A DNA stretch of 64,000 bases from Deltaproteobacteria bacterium (GCA_017992605.1 JAGOOG010000004.1:62001-126000); one strand, 5' to 3'; positions 12,482-31,522 are shown, numbered from the stretch's first letter. Numbers and translations: made by a program. The notes: generated by a model not told the origin, from the letters alone.

Positions 12482-12541
12482 TTGACATCCCCGAAGGAAT
12501 GTTCTATAGAGTCCATCTTATAGTTTAACTTCATGCTTAAG
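12482..12541 (+). promoter_or_regulatory. Promoter and operator-like site of the MerR regulator gene
   Basis: TTGACA at 12482-12487, a 17-nt spacer and TATAGA at 12505-12510 form a strong sigma-70 promoter. An AT-rich element, CTTATAGTTTAACTTCAT, begins at 12517 at the predicted transcription start and has the core GTTTAAC at 12523-12529, followed by CTTAAG. The same core lies in the promoter regions at 14981, 17289 (minus) and 31487 (minus), so this is a candidate autoregulatory operator. Confidence 0.6.
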
Positions 12542-12552
12542 AGAGGCAGGCA

Positions 12553-13248
12553 ATGGGCCTGAAGATCGGTGAGATAGCGAAGAAGAGCGGCGTGGCGCCT
12601 TCGACCATACGATACTATGTGCGCCAGGGACTCCTGCCTGAACCGGACAAGGTCAACAAGAGCATGGCCTACTATGACGAGAGATGCATCGAGAAGATCC
12701 ATGCCGTCAGGCACCTCCAGGAACGGAAGTATTTCCCCCTCTCGGTCATCAAGAACATACTCCGGAGAATGGACCAGGGGATGAGTCTCGACGAGGCCGA
12801 GTCCATAGAGGATGCCGTTTTCGGCGCCCAGGAGGGAATGCCCGAAAAGGTCATGGACAAGGCCGGATTCATGGAGGCCACCGGACTCACCAGGGAGGAG
12901 CTGCAGACTGCATCGAGGATCGGGCTCCTCATACCCTATCATCAGGAAAAGGGCCGCACCCTTTATAATCAGGAAGACGTTCTGTTTGCCAGGGAGGTTC
13001 TCAAGAAGATCATCTCCTTTGGACAGGACCTGCATGAGCTGAGCTTCTACGTCGATCTCGGCAGGCAGATTGTCGAATGCGAGATGAACCTGCGGAGGTC
13101 GGCGGTCAAGAACAGGTCCGCCCAGGAAAACATACGCATCACGGCCGAAATCTCAAAGATGGCCGACATGCTGCGGGGCTACATCCTCAGGAGACTCTTC
13201 CAGAGAAAGGTTCAGGCCGCCATACAAAAAAGCCTCAGCGACTCATGA
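12553..13248 (+). CDS. MerR-family transcriptional regulator with a second MerR-like segment
   Basis: 231-residue regulator. Residues about 3-72 form a MerR winged helix: IGEIAKKSGVAPSTIRYYVRQGLL is the helix-turn-helix pattern and the next segment (YDERCIEKIHAVRHLQE) matches the wing and second helix pair. Residues about 105-160 repeat the pattern in decayed form (GFMEATGLTREELQTASRIGLL, then GRTLYNQEDVLFAREVL), suggesting a tandem MerR fold. No Cys-based metal site is evident, so an organic ligand is more likely than a metal. The gene has its own strong promoter and a candidate operator also seen at three flavoenzyme/AOR promoters nearby. Confidence 0.85.
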   Translation: MGLKIGEIAKKSGVAPSTIRYYVRQGLLPEPDKVNKSMAYYDERCIEKIHAVRHLQERKYFPLSVIKNILRRMDQGMSLDEAESIEDAVFGAQEGMPEKVMDKAGFMEATGLTREELQTASRIGLLIPYHQEKGRTLYNQEDVLFAREVLKKIISFGQDLHELSFYVDLGRQIVECEMNLRRSAVKNRSAQENIRITAEISKMADMLRGYILRRLFQRKVQAAIQKSLSDS

Positions 13249-13600
13249 TCACCCCCGGGGGGGTCCCCGGGGTCTCGTCTATGAGTGAATGCTGCGAATT
13301 CGTGCCGGGCAAGGATATTTTCTTTCCACAGGACAGGGTAATTCTTTTCCAATTGATTGCTGATCCGGATCCCGTTATTCCATAACTCATGGATTTTTCA
13401 CACGCGCATCATGAGCATGAATTTTGCAACATAAGTATTTAATTCTATTTTTTATTTATAGCGATTGCATGGCACGTGTGGTTCTCGCTGCGGGGGAAGG
13501 TCCACCGGCAACGTTCACCATCCGGTCACCTGCTCCCCAGGAAGAGCGCCCGAGCCCGCCAAGGGCACCGGGATAAAGACACAGGCGAGGGATAGATAGA
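13249..13600. other. Intergenic region, AT-rich toward the end
   Basis: 352 bases without a supported gene. Right after the MerR stop there is a C/G-rich block (13251-13273, ACCCCC...GGGGT) that could form a short hairpin. Bases about 13421-13465 are very AT-rich, with a T-run at 13446-13451, as in an UP element or bent DNA upstream of the lipoprotein gene, but I could not identify a convincing -35/-10 pair. A 34-codon frame at 13281-13385 lacks a ribosome site and is not called. Confidence 0.5.
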
Positions 13601-14917
13601 ATGAGAAGAAACCTGAGAGACACACTTGTCCACCGGGAGCACCATGGACGCGGCACACGTCCTTTTACCCACCGGCGCCCGTGCTCTATGCTCTTGACCC
13701 TGGCCATGGCGCTCCTCCTCGTAGCGGGGTGTCACAGCGGAGGCGGTGCCGGGCCCGTCGCGGCAGAGGAAGGAACCTACAAAATCGGATACTTCATAGA
13801 CAGCCCGGTCGAGGGCCTGGAATACTCCTCCATAACCTTTGCAGGCGTCACGGACAGCCAGGGGGGGTTCTACTATAACGGGAACGAGGAAATGACGTTC
13901 TTTCTCGGCGGCGTCGTCATCGGACGCATCAATGCCCAGAGAATCGTCACCCCGGTGGACCTCGGGGGCGTGCTGGCTGACACCTCCAGCACAAGGGTCA
14001 TCAATATCGCCCGCTTTCTGCAATCCCTTGATGATGACCTCATCGCGGCAAACGGGATCAGGATTCCCGAGGAAGTTCGCGAGGCCCTGCAAGGAATCCG
14101 CGTGGACTTCAACAACCCCGAACTCGACAACGATGCAGGGGTGAAGGAACTTTTCGACCGGCTCAACGACATGGGCATTTACCCGGAAGAGGTTGAACGG
14201 GACCTCCTCCCCACCGCACAGACCCAGCTCCACCTGGAGAACACCATAACCCGGATCGAACAGGAGGAAGCAGACACCGAGGAGGCACTGAAGAATCTCG
14301 AGCTGTCCGCGTCCATCGGCTTTCCGTATGCAAGCGTCCTCTTGACACAGGGGCAGGTCATACCTCTGCAGGGATATGTCTACGGCGGCAAGCCGCCGTA
14401 TACCTACTCATGGCGGATCGACGACGGGGCTCCTTTCTCCTCCCGGCTGAGCCCGGGCAACTATCGCTTCAGAAACCAGGGTGCCTATACCGTAACCTTC
14501 ACCGCAACCGACAGATCCGGGGATACCAGCACAGACATCCGTCATGTCAATGTCGTCGACCCTGAAACACAGGCGGGCGATTTTCCCCCAGATTCGATCC
14601 CCACGGTCGGGATCGTCTCCCCTTCTCCCGGGAACGCGACGTTTGCGGCAGGCGACACCGTGACCTTCGAGGCCTTCATCAACAACGGGAACACCCCCCT
14701 GTACTATGGATGGTCCGTGGGTGCCGTGCCGGGCAACACGCACGACCCGAGGACCGAGAGCATAACCTACATCTCGCCGCGGACCTTTATCATCTCTCAG
14801 GACATCACGCTCAATTCTCGGGGAGACTACTACATCTACATCTCCACCCGGGACACATCGTACGCGGGAAAGGGGCCTGACCAGCACGCTGCAAGCATGA
14901 AGGTCACGGTGAAGTGA
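13601..14917 (+). CDS. Lipoprotein with carboxypeptidase-like repeat and PKD-type domains
   Basis: 438-residue predicted lipoprotein. An unusually long basic n-region (about 29 residues) precedes the hydrophobic core and the lipobox LLVAGC; an ATG at 13688 would give a conventional signal but has no ribosome site. The first mature domain carries the pattern SPVEGLEY...GVTDSQGGFYYNGNEEMTFFLGG, a beta module common in envelope lipoproteins of proteobacteria. A helical, acidic middle follows, then PKD-like domains (about residues 260-325: YTYSWRIDDG, GAYTVTFTATD) and a second beta domain at the C-terminus (YYGWSVGAVPG). Such proteins are surface or periplasmic binding/scaffold proteins; the ligand is unknown. 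Confidence 0.78.
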   Translation: MRRNLRDTLVHREHHGRGTRPFTHRRPCSMLLTLAMALLLVAGCHSGGGAGPVAAEEGTYKIGYFIDSPVEGLEYSSITFAGVTDSQGGFYYNGNEEMTFFLGGVVIGRINAQRIVTPVDLGGVLADTSSTRVINIARFLQSLDDDLIAANGIRIPEEVREALQGIRVDFNNPELDNDAGVKELFDRLNDMGIYPEEVERDLLPTAQTQLHLENTITRIEQEEADTEEALKNLELSASIGFPYASVLLTQGQVIPLQGYVYGGKPPYTYSWRIDDGAPFSSRLSPGNYRFRNQGAYTVTFTATDRSGDTSTDIRHVNVVDPETQAGDFPPDSIPTVGIVSPSPGNATFAAGDTVTFEAFINNGNTPLYYGWSVGAVPGNTHDPRTESITYISPRTFIISQDITLNSRGDYYIYISTRDTSYAGKGPDQHAASMKVTVK

Positions 14918-14943
14918 TTGCGCCGGAACCCTGGAATTCCGTC

Positions 14944-15000
14944 TTGACAAACACGGGCACCCTCCTGTATTAACCTTATAGCTTAACTTTAATCTTTAAT
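14944..15000 (+). promoter_or_regulatory. Promoter and operator-like site of flavoprotein gene 1
   Basis: A perfect TTGACA (14944-14949) is followed 18 nt later by TATTAA (14968-14973). CCTTATAGCTTAACTTTAAT starts at 14974, with the core GCTTAAC at 14981-14987 near the predicted transcription start. The layout matches the MerR gene promoter at 12482-12541 closely (CTTATAG-TTAACTT shared). Confidence 0.6.
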
Positions 15001-15061
15001 AATTCATGGGGAGTTATCGCAAGGTAGTCCTCAGCACAATACCATTCACAGGGAGTCATGT

Positions 15062-16186
15062 ATGAAGACACGCATTACCGAGCTCTTCGGCATCAAGCAC
15101 CCCATCGTTCTCTCAGGCATGAGCTGGATAAGTGTGCCCAAGATGGTTGCGGCGGTTTCCAATGCCGGCGGTCTCGGCATTCTTGCCACCGGCCCATTCG
15201 ATGCCCAGCAGACACGGGCCGCCATCAAGGAGATCAAGTCGCTCACCAGCAAGCCCTTCGGGACCAACACCACCCTGCTCTTTCCTGGGGCCGCCGAGAA
15301 TGCGATGGTCGCCCTGGAGGAAAAGGTTCCGGTCATCAACTTCTCGCTGGGCAAGGGAGACTGGATCGTGAAGGCAGCCCATCAGTACGGCGGCAAGGTC
15401 GTCGCCACGGTCGTCAATGCACGCCACGCCAAGCGCGCCCAGGATTACGGCTGCGATGCGCTCCTGGTGACCGGTCACGAGGCCGCTGCCCACGGCGGTG
15501 ACGCCACCACCTTCTGCCTCGTGCCGAGCATAGGCAACGCGGTCACTATACCCATCATCGCAGCAGGCGGCATCGCGGACGGGAGGGGCCTCGCAGCAGC
15601 CCTTGCCCTGGGCGCGGAAGGGGCCGCCATGGGCACACGGCTCATGGCCACCAAGGAAAGCCCTCTGCATGAGAACTACAAGCAGCTCTCCATCCAGAAA
15701 GAGGTGTATGACACGCTCTATTCAACCCGCTTCGACGGCCTCGGGTGCAGGGTGCTCGACACCAAGGCGGCACGGAGCGCTATTCGCCAGGGGCTGAATA
15801 TCAGGAAGCTCATAGAAGCGCTGCCGAACTCCATGGTCATCGCAAACCAGCTGCACCTGCCCTATTTCAAGCTGTTCCTCGGCGTCCTGGCCTCGGGGTG
15901 GAAGAATGCCAGGCAGCTTGCCTTCATGGCCAATGCCTTCAAGGCCATCCGCGTGGCCACCGAGGACGGCGACATCACCACGGGCGTCCTTCCCGTGGGG
16001 CAGGCAACCGGCCTGATGAGGGACATCCCCACCGTTGCCGAGGTCATCGAGAGGACCGTCAAAGAGGCGGAAGCGATCACCATCGGGCTCGCGCAGAAGG
16101 CAGGCGGGGCCGCAAAGACCCGGCCGGCCACGAAGGCACGGCCAAAGGCACCCCGGACCACACGCAAGACACCACCGAAGAAGTAG
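15062..16186 (+). CDS. Nitronate monooxygenase-family flavoprotein with basic tail
   Basis: 374-residue FMN-dependent TIM-barrel protein of the nitronate monooxygenase/2-nitropropane dioxygenase and FabK (enoyl-ACP reductase II) superfamily. Features are FGIKHPIVLSGM at the N-terminus, GGLGILATG, the active-site loop TGHEAAAHGG (His about residue 144), and the FMN-phosphate sites AAGGIADGRG and GAEGAAMGTR. In an anaerobe an NAD(P)H-linked reductase role is as likely as nitronate oxidation. The last 30 residues are a Lys/Arg/Pro/Ala-rich tail (KTRPATKARPKAPRTTRK), similar to histone H1-like tails and not part of the fold. GGGAGT precedes the start. Confidence 0.88.
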   Translation: MKTRITELFGIKHPIVLSGMSWISVPKMVAAVSNAGGLGILATGPFDAQQTRAAIKEIKSLTSKPFGTNTTLLFPGAAENAMVALEEKVPVINFSLGKGDWIVKAAHQYGGKVVATVVNARHAKRAQDYGCDALLVTGHEAAAHGGDATTFCLVPSIGNAVTIPIIAAGGIADGRGLAAALALGAEGAAMGTRLMATKESPLHENYKQLSIQKEVYDTLYSTRFDGLGCRVLDTKAARSAIRQGLNIRKLIEALPNSMVIANQLHLPYFKLFLGVLASGWKNARQLAFMANAFKAIRVATEDGDITTGVLPVGQATGLMRDIPTVAEVIERTVKEAEAITIGLAQKAGGAAKTRPATKARPKAPRTTRKTPPKK

Positions 16187-16216
16187 CGGGCTCTGTCACA
16201 AGCTCCTGACGCGAAC

Positions 16217-16250
16217 GAGCGGTCACGCCCCGTCCCGGGCGCGACCGCTC
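16217..16250. terminator. Bidirectional hairpin terminator between two convergent flavoprotein genes
   Basis: GAGCGGTC (16217-16224) pairs with GACCGCTC (16243-16250); inside it CGCCC pairs with GGGCG after one mismatch, leaving a six-base loop. The + side continues into GCTTCTTGGTTT. It separates the stops of two convergent paralogous genes. Confidence 0.8.
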
Positions 16251-16268
16251 GCTTCTTGGTTTCCTGTG

Positions 16269-17258
16269 TTACTGGATCAGGCTGACTGTCTTCTTCAGGT
16301 GGGCCACCGCGTCATCATGCATCTTCTCGAGGAGTTCCTTGCAGCTCACGATACCACGGATGTGACCGATGGACTGGCCTACCATCAGGGGGGCGTCCTC
16401 GACATCCCCGGTCTCCCATGCCCGCTTGATGCGCTGGCCTGCAATGAGCGGGATGAGTGCCTCGATACCCTTCCCCTCGCCCTCGGCCCTGAGTACTTCC
16501 GAGATGATCTTGTTCCTGAGCGCCCTGCCCTGGAGGCCGATGGTCTTGCAGAAGAGGGTGGTCTCGTTCTCCTGGCGCTTGACGAGCTCCTGCTTGATGT
16601 TCTCGTGCACGACGCAGTCGGTGGTGGCGATGAACCTGCTCGCCATCATGACGCCCTGCGCGCCGAGCGTCAGTGCGGCGGCCATAGACCTGCCGTCGGC
16701 AATGCCGCCCACCGTGACGACGGGGATCTTCACGGAATCGGCGATCCTGGGGGTGAGCACCATGGTGGTCACGTCATCGCTCAGGGGGTGTCCCCCCTCC
16801 TCGAATCCCGCCGCATAGACACCGTCATACCCGGCCTTTTCCGCGTGCATGGCATGCCTGACCGAGCCGACCTTGTGAAAGAGCCTCACTCCCGCATCCT
16901 TCAACTCCCCGAATGCCTTATTTCCCAGGGCCTTGTCCAGGGGAGAACCTGACACCTCGATGCCCGCCACCCGCTCCTGGGCGCATACCCGGGCATACAT
17001 CGCGTGATGCTCGGAGGTGATGCGAACCGAGGGCAGAATGGTGATGCCCACCATGAAGGGCTTGTCGGTGAGCCTCTTCGTCTCGCCGATGGCTGCGCGG
17101 AACTCCTCCTCGGTCTCGAAGTTTCCGGCCGTGAGGTTTCCCATGCCCCCCGCGTTCGAGACGGCTGCACAGAGCTTCGGCGTACAGAGCCACATCATGG
17201 CGCCGCAGATGACCGGGTACTTGATACCGAACATTTCCGTGATCGCGGTCTTGATCAT
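16269..17258 (-). CDS. Nitronate monooxygenase-family flavoprotein 2
   Basis: 329-residue paralogue of the gene at 15062-16186, convergent with it. Same superfamily marks: FGIKYPVICGAM, SNAGGMGNLTAG, active-site loop AAGFEEGGHPL (His about residue 157) and FMN site VGGIADGRSMAAALTLGAQGVMM. It lacks the basic tail. It could be a nitronate monooxygenase or an enoyl-thioester reductase-like flavoenzyme; the family does not allow a firm substrate. Its promoter (17281-17338) contains the same AT-rich core as the regulator gene and flavoprotein 1, so the pair is probably co-regulated. Confidence 0.88.
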   Translation of the reverse strand: MIKTAITEMFGIKYPVICGAMMWLCTPKLCAAVSNAGGMGNLTAGNFETEEEFRAAIGETKRLTDKPFMVGITILPSVRITSEHHAMYARVCAQERVAGIEVSGSPLDKALGNKAFGELKDAGVRLFHKVGSVRHAMHAEKAGYDGVYAAGFEEGGHPLSDDVTTMVLTPRIADSVKIPVVTVGGIADGRSMAAALTLGAQGVMMASRFIATTDCVVHENIKQELVKRQENETTLFCKTIGLQGRALRNKIISEVLRAEGEGKGIEALIPLIAGQRIKRAWETGDVEDAPLMVGQSIGHIRGIVSCKELLEKMHDDAVAHLKKTVSLIQ

Positions 17259-17280
17259 GTTTTCCCCCTGTAGTGATGAA

Positions 17281-17338
17281 AGGTTAAAGTTAAACTTTAT
17301 ACTTTATAACAGGTACATGCTTCCGTTTCCCATGTCAA
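17281..17338 (-). promoter_or_regulatory. Promoter and operator-like site of flavoprotein gene 2
   Basis: On the minus strand TTGACA (17338-17333) is followed by the AT-rich run TTATAAAGTATAAAGTTTAAC. A perfect palindrome, AAAGTTAAACTTT, lies at 17286-17298 and contains the core GTTTAAC (minus, 17295-17289). A -10 at normal spacing is poor, which would fit an activator-dependent promoter. Confidence 0.55.
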
Positions 17339-29234: not shown

Positions 29235-31196
29235 TCAGCTCGTCTCGATGCCAAGCCGGGACATGGTCTGAGGGGTCGGCTTTCCCGTCGACGGATCCCA
29301 TCCGAACTGCTTCCAGTAGTCGCTCATCATCTTCTCGATGTTCACCGTCCTTCCCTTGTTGGCGCCGCGGGTCTGCGGGGGTCTCCCCACGGCCCGGTCG
29401 TGAAGCTTGTTGTTCATCGGCTCTATGCCGTGCTTCACGTTGAAGGCCTGCTTGATGGTCTGGATGCGCTCACCGATCTCCATATACTCTTCGGGGGTCC
29501 TGTTCCAGCCGGTCACGGCATTGAGCCAGTCGAAGGTCGGGGTCCTCGTGACCCCGAGGAAGGCCCCGAACATGCAGAGCCCCGCCCCATTGACGACGGC
29601 GATGTATTTGCTGCAGGATGCCTCCTCCCGGGCCTTCCCGTCATCGGCGACATACCTGCTGTTCTTGGAGTAGATCTGGAAGGGCAGCTTCTTCGGGATG
29701 CCCTTCACCTTTTTCCAGAGCTGGAACATCTCGTAGTAGAGCTGTGAACCTATGGTGTGCCTGCCGGGTGTGGGCTCCACCGAATAGTGGACCGCGAATC
29801 CCGGGTCCATCCTGCCGTCGTGCATGGCAGGCTCCTGCCCCCCGGCATGGATGGCATATTTCTCAGATCCCCTTCCGATCTTCCGGGCAGCCACCCTCAC
29901 GCCGTCCGCCAGGACGTCACCGATCCCCTCGCGTCTCACCATCCTGTGGACAAGCTCGGCCATGGATACGGCATCACCCCAGGAGAGGTCGAGGCCGCCG
30001 GTGTCCTCCTTCGTGAGGATGCCGCGCTCATAGCACTCCATGGCAAAGGCCACCGTGGACCCTGCGGATATGGTGTCCATGCCCGCACGGTTGAGATACT
30101 CGTTGAGCTCGAACATGCTGTCCGTGTTCTCGTTCATGCAGAGGCCGCCCAGGGCAAGGACCGATTCATACTCCGGTTTGTGTCCCTCCGGATACTTGCC
30201 GGGATACCTGCAGATACCACCGCAGCCCAGCGGACACGAGTAGCAGTGGTACTTGAGGACCTCGTAGCCCTTGACAAGATCGGGGTGGGCTGACCTGGAC
30301 TTGCTCATGGGCCAGTCCACGTTGCTGCCCTTCCAGTTCTTGATGGGCGAGTCTCCCCACTCGGGAGACATCTGGTTGAGCCCGCCGGTACCCCACTTCC
30401 TGAGAATGTTCTTGTACACATACCCGTCCATGGCCATTGCCGTGGGAAGTACCCTGAGCAGCACGCCCAGGAGACCCATGCCGGTGCCGGGCCCCAGGGG
30501 CAGCTGGGTCCGGACCCACCGGTTGCAGATCCTGCTCAGGCGGTTGACCTCTTGACGATCATGCACCTGGATGCGCTTTTTCCCGTCGAGGACCAGGGCC
30601 TTGAGCCTCTTGGAGCCCATGACAGCGCCGAGTCCCGAGCGCGCGGCGAGCCTGCCCCTATCGTTGCACACCCCCGATATGAGCGAGAGATTCTCTCCTG
30701 CCGGGCCTATCACGGCCACACTGACATGCTCGCCGAATTCCTTCTTCAGGATCTCCTCGGTCTCGATGGCATCCTTGCCCCAGAGGTGGGCTGCATCGCG
30801 CAGTTCGGGTTTCCCGTTCTTCACATAGAGCAGCACCGGCTTCTCGCTGATTCCGGAGAAAAAGATGCCGTCATAGCCCGAGCGTTTCATGGCAGGCGAC
30901 AGGGTACCCCCGCAGTTGGCGTCACCCCACCCGCCGGTCAACGGAGACTTGGCCACCACCATCCACCGGCCGGCAAAGAGGCTCCCGGTCCCGGTCAGGA
31001 GCCCCGAAACAAACCCGAGAATATTGTCCGGGCCGAGAGGGTCTGCACCCGCTGGAATTCTGTGGAACAGGATGTGCGCTGCAAGCCCCATTCCAGAGAG
31101 GTGCCTCTCGTAGAGAGCATCGGGGATAATCTCGTCTTCAAACGATGACCTTCCCAGGTCAACCTTCAGGATCCTGCCCATGTATCCTCGGCCCAT
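29235..31196 (-). CDS. Aldehyde:ferredoxin oxidoreductase (tungsten enzyme)
   Basis: 653-residue AOR-family oxidoreductase with tungsten-bispyranopterin and one [4Fe-4S] cluster, interconverting aldehydes and carboxylic acids using ferredoxin. N-terminal domain features are GRILKVDLG, LGPDN, GPAGEN and GRLAARSGLGAVMGSKRLKA (family block). The cluster ligands are CYSCPLGC in the middle (CxxCxxxC) and a distal Cys in GLCMFG. The ATG at 31196 has AAGGAGGG; a later ATG (31181) is possible. It pairs with the downstream polyferredoxin. In syntrophic or aromatic-degrading anaerobes such enzymes reduce or oxidise benzoate or fatty-acid aldehydes; substrate not inferable. Confidence 0.93.
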   Translation of the reverse strand: MGRGYMGRILKVDLGRSSFEDEIIPDALYERHLSGMGLAAHILFHRIPAGADPLGPDNILGFVSGLLTGTGSLFAGRWMVVAKSPLTGGWGDANCGGTLSPAMKRSGYDGIFFSGISEKPVLLYVKNGKPELRDAAHLWGKDAIETEEILKKEFGEHVSVAVIGPAGENLSLISGVCNDRGRLAARSGLGAVMGSKRLKALVLDGKKRIQVHDRQEVNRLSRICNRWVRTQLPLGPGTGMGLLGVLLRVLPTAMAMDGYVYKNILRKWGTGGLNQMSPEWGDSPIKNWKGSNVDWPMSKSRSAHPDLVKGYEVLKYHCYSCPLGCGGICRYPGKYPEGHKPEYESVLALGGLCMNENTDSMFELNEYLNRAGMDTISAGSTVAFAMECYERGILTKEDTGGLDLSWGDAVSMAELVHRMVRREGIGDVLADGVRVAARKIGRGSEKYAIHAGGQEPAMHDGRMDPGFAVHYSVEPTPGRHTIGSQLYYEMFQLWKKVKGIPKKLPFQIYSKNSRYVADDGKAREEASCSKYIAVVNGAGLCMFGAFLGVTRTPTFDWLNAVTGWNRTPEEYMEIGERIQTIKQAFNVKHGIEPMNNKLHDRAVGRPPQTRGANKGRTVNIEKMMSDYWKQFGWDPSTGKPTPQTMSRLGIETS

Positions 31197-31478
31197 ACAC
31201 CCTCCTTCTGGTGTTCGGTAAATCAACGCCCATGGATATATCCCGTCATGTTCTCCTGTGACCATGATCTCTTACCGGCGCGTTGATGTATCCCGGTAAT
31301 AGATGAAGGTACCAGGTAGGTGGAACAACGTGCCTCTCATGGAAAGAATTCTCCGGGGAACAGGATCCGGGCCACCATAAAACACGACCATCTCTGCAGT
31401 ACCGGCTCAAAGGTCACCATGCACCATACCGATCATCACACCCCCGCATGAGAGGGCCACAAGAACGATACGAGTACC
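31197..31478 (-). other. Long untranslated leader/intergenic stretch upstream of AOR
   Basis: About 280 bases between the AOR start and the promoter/operator at 31479-31522. Apart from the AOR ribosome site I find no open frame with a ribosome site and no obvious riboswitch fold. A closer, undetected promoter is possible. The remaining 31523-31621 segment toward trxC contains an inverted repeat TCCCGG...CCGGGA (31586-31603), possibly the trxC terminator stem, without a T-tract. Confidence 0.4.
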
Positions 31479-31522
31479 TTAACAATGTTAAACTTATATG
31501 CCAAAGGGTTCTTTACGGTCAA
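31479..31522 (-). promoter_or_regulatory. Promoter with palindromic operator upstream of AOR
   Basis: Minus strand: TTGACC (31522-31517), 18-nt spacer, TATAAG (31498-31493), a strong sigma-70 promoter. It runs directly into TTAACATTGTTAA, a perfect inverted repeat (31491-31479). The core GTTTAAC (31493-31487) matches the sites before the MerR regulator and the two flavoproteins. Confidence 0.6.

Follow-up and report, generated by a model that had tools for sequence, protein, structure and literature searches.

HspR, one of the MerR-type proteins compared here, is a repressor. Canonical MerR activators (MerR, CueR and SoxR) use sites of 21–22 bp that lie inside a 19–20 bp spacer (PMC5045206, PMC9909328). 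In Actinobacteria, FtsR binds a 25-bp inverted repeat, AACCCTAAAGTAAAGGTTGAGGGTA, and activates ftsZ (PMC6683498), and a review lists fatty acids for its orthologue Rv1828 (PMC9909328). We analysed a 64,000-nucleotide stretch of DNA from a Deltaproteobacteria bacterium (GCA_017992605.1 JAGOOG010000004.1:62001-126000; the window), part of a 2.71 Mb genome that is 98% complete (G000) and has Thermodesulfobacteriota/Deltaproteobacteria MAGs as its closest named relatives. Three promoters in it share an AT-rich element: that of a MerR-type regulator gene, merR, and those of two nitronate monooxygenase (NMO)-family genes, NMO1 and NMO2. With a probability of about 0.85, the three elements are operators of this MerR-type protein, which would repress merR, NMO1, NMO2 and a CrtI-like operon until a ligand releases it. 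Regulon and operator would both be new, and they belong to a MerR-type protein whose layout is unusual.

Direct reading of the sequence finds the common element at all three promoters. The original prediction described it as a 13-nt motif 31–37 nt after a perfect TTGACA. A perfect TTGACA does precede each copy, at measured gaps of 31, 27 and 33 nt, so the proposed range does not hold throughout. The 13-mer is exact at merR (TATAGTTTAACTT, 12519-12531, plus strand) and NMO1 (TATAGCTTAACTT, 14977-14989, plus strand); the NMO2 copy (TAAAGTTTAACTT, minus strand) has one mismatch, departs from the proposed TATA(A)G start and reads from 17299 to 17287 rather than 17286. Six matches to TATAAGYTTAACTT with at most three mismatches occur in the window against 0.63 expected, and none of 100 shuffles reached six. 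Across the genome, these three sites are the only matches to TATAGYTTAACTT at zero or one mismatch. At two mismatches, genome-wide matches are not enriched over a reversed control, so the 13-mer alone makes a modest case. A fourth window match, TATAAGTTTAACAT (31485-31498, minus strand), before an aldehyde:ferredoxin oxidoreductase gene (29235-31265), is a chance occurrence, with a matrix score of −5.7 and no site at 16 orthologues.

The 13-mers are fragments of one ~29-bp quasi-palindrome with four boxes, rather than the whole operator as had been proposed. The consensus of 65 operator sites, all in gene orientation, is TAAAGCTTAAAGTTTAACTTTAAGCTTTA. Counted from the central base, TAAAG stands at −14 and −7 and CTTTA at +3 and +10. 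Nearly every site has both inner boxes. The left outer box occurs in 35 of the 65 sites and the right in 42, against 0–4 at neighbouring offsets. Sites at merR and NMO1 use the right outer box and CrtI-like sites the left, while NMO2 and OYE-type sites have mostly the left, or both. At merR and NMO1 the asymmetric form has the plus orientation relative to the gene; at CrtI-like, OYE and many NMO2 genes it is mostly in the minus orientation.

Promoter geometry points to repression. Among 71 callable promoters, the spacer is 17 or 18 bp in 59 and 19 bp in one, and the operator centre mostly lies 10–16 bp beyond the −10, which places it over the start site. This is not the classical MerR activation layout, in which the operator sits between −35 and −10 with a 19–20 bp spacer. 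An operator just downstream of −10, combined with spacers of 17–18 bp, suggests repression by blocking initiation rather than MerR-type DNA untwisting.

The operator is conserved in orthologous promoters and can be recovered from whole genomes. Orthologues of merR, NMO1 and NMO2 were drawn from 24 genomes of one order. Their upstream regions read TTTGACA-17-TATAGA-N6-CTTATAGTTTMACTTYATGCTTAAAAG at merR, AACCTTGTAGTTTAACTTTAATCTTTA at NMO1 and TAAAGYATAAAGTTYAACTTTAA at NMO2; conservation covers the element but not the stretch from −35 to −10. The motif, whose loss from orthologous promoters the original prediction had named as the observation that would count against it, is thus present upstream of the orthologues. 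An iterated matrix scored 17 of 19 merR, 16 of 20 NMO1 and 20 of 21 NMO2 promoters above 17 bits. Since all promoters had gone into training that matrix, we built a sequence-only profile, R1, from merR promoters alone and ran it over the 24 whole genomes. Ranked directly after the merR promoters were 12 NMO1 or NMO2 promoter sites from 10 genomes, that of NMO1 in this genome among them. Conservation over the full ~29 bp settles the question at the level of sequence, confirming that the three elements are real and not a chance AT-rich match.

Two further arrangements were seen around merR promoters. In several genera, the promoter is flanked by an inverted repeat made up of CTCTCCTTTGACA on its upstream side and TTAAAAGGAG at the ribosome-binding site (loci L013, L015-L020, L022, L023 and L025); this repeat is absent in the window. 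Paralogous NMO1-merR operons with near-palindromic promoter sites occur at L064, L069 and L070 (genomes G013, G023 and G018), and the G018 promoter carries a perfect palindrome, ATGAACATTAAAGTTAAACTTTAATGTTCAT.

Sites track the regulator gene across the phylum. In a sample of 395 genomes, 18 encode a close MerR orthologue (E below 1e-60), and sites were called at E ≤ 0.01 with R2, a profile of all sites. They occur in 14 of the 18 genomes with the orthologue and in 9 of the 377 without it (Fisher p 1.1e-16, a value that overstates the evidence because related genomes are not independent). Matches in G051, G156, G200, G232, G248, G325, G376 and G391, all without the orthologue, look like chance, with no recurrent target nearby. 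In family f32 (two genomes, L211 and L212), merR is followed by NMO2 and NMO1; in families f15 and f12 (four genomes, L213-L216), it is followed by CrtI-like genes. A palindrome version stands at the merR promoter in five of these six loci and was seen in f32 and f15. Genome-wide matches in f15 lie before NMO-NMO operons (G036, G137 and G109) and before an acyl-CoA ligase gene (G073). To judge from these sequences, gene order changes but the regulator, its site and the enzyme families stay associated over long distances. At the f15 loci L213-L215, merR has as neighbours genes for a small multihaem-type protein and a run of two or three CrtI-like oxidoreductases whose signal peptides are lipoprotein-like.

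The regulon appears to extend beyond the window. Recurrent predicted targets beside R2 matches include, in about ten genomes, a CrtI-like FAD oxidoreductase gene followed by one for a BenC-like FAD/NAD reductase and, in six genomes, a gene for a 666-aa OYE/FadH/BaiCD-like flavoenzyme, which is convergent with merR in G002. The site at the G009 OYE gene is a perfect 31-bp palindrome, ATAAAGCTTAAAGTTTAACTTTAAGCTTTAT. An enoyl-CoA hydratase gene is a target in G008, and a 4Fe-4S protein gene in G009 and G018. These predicted sites support a regulon that includes the CrtI-like operon of the same genome (G000:C2:6283-6306, E 0.03 with R2) and OYE, enoyl-CoA hydratase, Fe-S and acyl-CoA ligase genes in relatives. 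The proposal of an autoregulated regulon of merR and two NMO-family genes is supported: the site is kept before all three orthologues, R1 finds the NMO promoters, and the site tracks the regulator gene. Its description as local fits the merR and NMO genes but not the CrtI-like operon, which lies on another contig.

Modelling indicates that the regulator is a tandem winged-helix MerR-like protein, whose single chain carries a second winged helix of the MerR type. Residues 4–71 match the Pfam MerR_1 winged helix (E 3.8e-21, 75 bits against a cut-off of 21.6), which places the protein in the MerR superfamily. An AlphaFold2 model of the regulator (22 orthologues; predicted local distance difference test, pLDDT, 88.7) has a second winged helix at ~100–158 and long C-terminal helices; folded alone (residues 98–190), the second domain reaches a pLDDT of 90.9. 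Its best Foldseek matches are the DNA-bound MerR-family domains of TnrA, RacA and GlnR, at probability 1.00 with E values of only ~0.003–0.1, and it also matches the Rv1828 C-terminal domain (5ydd). FtsR is the sole full-length match among curated families (NCBIfam NF050798), at 54 bits over residues 14–211, below the cut-off of 150. Compared with our consensus, one published FtsR site (PMC6683498) agrees at 15 of 25 positions, best in the same register and with TAAAG at the same −7. This resemblance lends modest independent support to the view that such a protein may read the element. An ftsZ-promoter site, an FtsR trait, is not among the genome-wide matches inspected here, which are merR, NMO1, NMO2 and the CrtI-like operon.

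Both enzymes belong to the nitronate monooxygenase superfamily by their predicted Pfam NMO domains (NMO1, E 8e-63, 213 bits; NMO2, E 7e-54, 184 bits; cut-off 28). They score 246 and 233 bits, respectively, with the FabK enoyl-ACP reductase model TIGR03151, below its 453-bit cut-off. The nearest solved relatives of NMO1 are the FabK-type 5gvj and 3bo9. NMO2 matches PA1024, an NADH:quinone reductase, at E 9e-57 and keeps its GFExxGHPxxDD motif. A second NMO1 paralogue elsewhere in the genome (69% identical; G000:C34:33923-34942, L224) follows genes for an enoyl-CoA hydratase and apparently an AtuA-like protein, and no operator was seen there; its context suggests a connection with terpenoid or branched acyl-CoA metabolism.

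Repression over the start site with release by a ligand is the explanation we favour. A regulator dimer would offer four winged helices for the four TAAAG/CTTTA boxes. Once bound, it would sit over the start sites of sigma-70 promoters that are otherwise good. Transcription of merR itself would be repressed, as would that of the genes for both NMO-family flavoenzymes and, in another part of the genome, of an operon for a CrtI-like FAD oxidoreductase and a reductase. Release would come from a ligand, most probably one of the acyl-CoAs or fatty acids on which the target enzymes act. The sites, their conservation, the recurrence of targets, the co-occurrence with the regulator gene and the promoter geometry are observed; we infer direct binding, four-box recognition, repression and the ligand. 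An acyl-CoA or fatty-acid signal is suggested because the targets are NMO/FabK-like, OYE/BaiCD-like, CrtI-like, enoyl-CoA hydratase and acyl-CoA ligase genes, and because fatty acids are listed for Rv1828 (PMC9909328). The main alternative for the signal is a quinone or electrophile, since NMO2 is closest to PA1024.

Several points weigh against this explanation, and some would suit activation by the same protein. Sequence profile-profile comparison, with an alignment too shallow for the purpose, detected no internal repeat of the two regulator domains. At most sites one box of the four is absent. Some position weight matrix statistics are partly circular, the matrix having been trained on the same promoters; R1 is not. 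Two genomes, G001 and G014, both incomplete assemblies, have operator-like sites and no MerR orthologue was found in them. Geometry is not fixed either: the operator lies further downstream in four f15 promoters, and in five NMO1 promoters of genus g10 it is 12 bp nearer −35 and overlaps −10. This overlap, the habit of canonical MerR proteins to activate, and the activation of ftsZ by the relative FtsR from an upstream site (PMC6683498) would all fit a MerR protein that owns these sites and activates from them. We hold this to be unlikely, given near-consensus TTGACA elements, normal 17–18 bp spacers, an operator mostly downstream of −10, in the classical place of a repressor and not of an activator, and its presence on merR's own promoter.

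The remaining explanations take the element away from the MerR protein, from DNA or from function altogether. A different transcription factor could read the operator, with merR merely one of its targets: either reading predicts a self-binding site at a regulator gene, and MerR binding is itself inferred. That is improbable to a marked degree, for the site and the MerR orthologue are found together across the phylum, merR in other families shares operons with target enzymes, its paralogues sit in operons with near-perfect promoter versions (L064 and L070), and the element resembles the FtsR site. Lying at or just past the expected transcription start, the element might instead act as RNA in the 5′ untranslated region. 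Its asymmetric version, however, can face either way with respect to the gene, as expected of an operator in DNA but not of an RNA element, and in g10 the element overlaps −10; an RNA role is therefore very improbable. Chance AT-rich similarity of promoter starts, which the original prediction had already judged unlikely, draws on the short 13-mer, unenriched at two mismatches against the reversed control. For the 13-mer alone, that judgement has modest backing on a genome-wide count. It holds for the conserved operator: orthologue conservation, genome-wide recovery by the independently trained R1 and co-occurrence (p 1.1e-16) leave chance with next to no probability. We retain the MerR-type repressor as the likely reader of all three sites, whose features are collected in Table 1.

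Table 1. Genes, promoter elements and predicted operators at the three loci of the window
Feature	Position	Strand	Description or basis
merR	12553..13248	+	231-aa regulator; predicted two MerR-type winged-helix domains in tandem (~3-75, ~100-158), C-terminal helical tail
merR promoter −35 TTGACA	12482..12487	+	sequence; kept in orthologues
merR promoter −10 TATAGA, spacer 17	12505..12510	+	sequence
Predicted operator at merR, centre 12526	12512..12540	+	inner palindrome and right outer box CTTAA; matched by R1 and R2
NMO1 promoter −35 TTGACA	14944..14949	+	sequence; conserved
NMO1 promoter −10 TATTAA, spacer 18	14968..14973	+	sequence
Predicted operator at NMO1, centre 14984	14970..14998	+	inner palindrome and right outer box CTTTA; found by merR-only R1
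NMO1	15062..16186	+	374-aa nitronate monooxygenase / FabK-like flavoprotein
NMO2	16269..17258	-	329-aa NMO-superfamily flavoprotein, nearest to PA1024
Predicted operator at NMO2, centre 17292	17278..17306	-	inner palindrome AAAGTTTAACTTT between left outer box TAAAG and right box CTTTC; R2 matches both strands
NMO2 promoter −10-like TACCTG (weak), spacer 17	17310..17315	-	sequence; not called by automatic promoter scan
NMO2 promoter −35 TTGACA	17333..17338	-	sequence

Between merR and NMO1 lies a gene for a PKD-domain lipoprotein (13601-14917), found in the same place in relatives (L041 5326-6588, L042 9860-11122 and L043 9035-10300); we saw no operator upstream of this gene.

On a broader scale, we tentatively propose, at slightly less than even odds, a previously undescribed regulon spanning the Thermodesulfobacteriota. 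In it, a tandem winged-helix MerR-like repressor on a four-box 29-bp operator over the start site would sense acyl-CoA or fatty acids and induce NMO/FabK-like, OYE/BaiCD-like and CrtI-like flavin enzymes that add or remove C–C double bonds in anaerobic acyl-CoA or terpenoid metabolism. In the open-access literature we found no MerR/nitronate-monooxygenase or fatty-acid regulon described for the phylum beyond structural mentions; one may be described elsewhere. The findings provide a binding motif, targets and a regulator for uncultured anaerobes with apparently few described regulons. They also tie four poorly characterised flavoenzyme families to one signal, narrowing their possible roles.

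Among known systems, LiuR, one of the MerR-family regulators of acyl-CoA catabolism, is a MerR-type regulator near acyl-CoA metabolism genes, but it is a short protein with an unrelated motif. The fused homodimer type of HspR (NF047377) has, like the regulator here, two MerR helices in one chain; it matches weakly, at 26 bits against a cut-off of 300, over the first domain only, and differs in operator and targets. Canonical MerR activators share the N-terminal MerR winged helix and a palindromic site. Unlike theirs, the site here is 25–29 bp long and lies downstream of −10, and the regulator has a second winged helix and no short coiled-coil metal-binding end. The system is a test case for the use of a four-box operator, placed for repression rather than untwisting activation, by a MerR-type protein that reads DNA with two domains, a question that bears equally on the cell-division regulator FtsR/Rv1828. 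With FtsR/Rv1828 the likeness runs over the full length of the protein, and the second domain resembles the Rv1828 C-terminal domain; here, however, the targets are flavoenzymes and not ftsZ, the operator overlies the start site instead of lying at −73 and has additional outer boxes, and the regulator appears to control its own gene.

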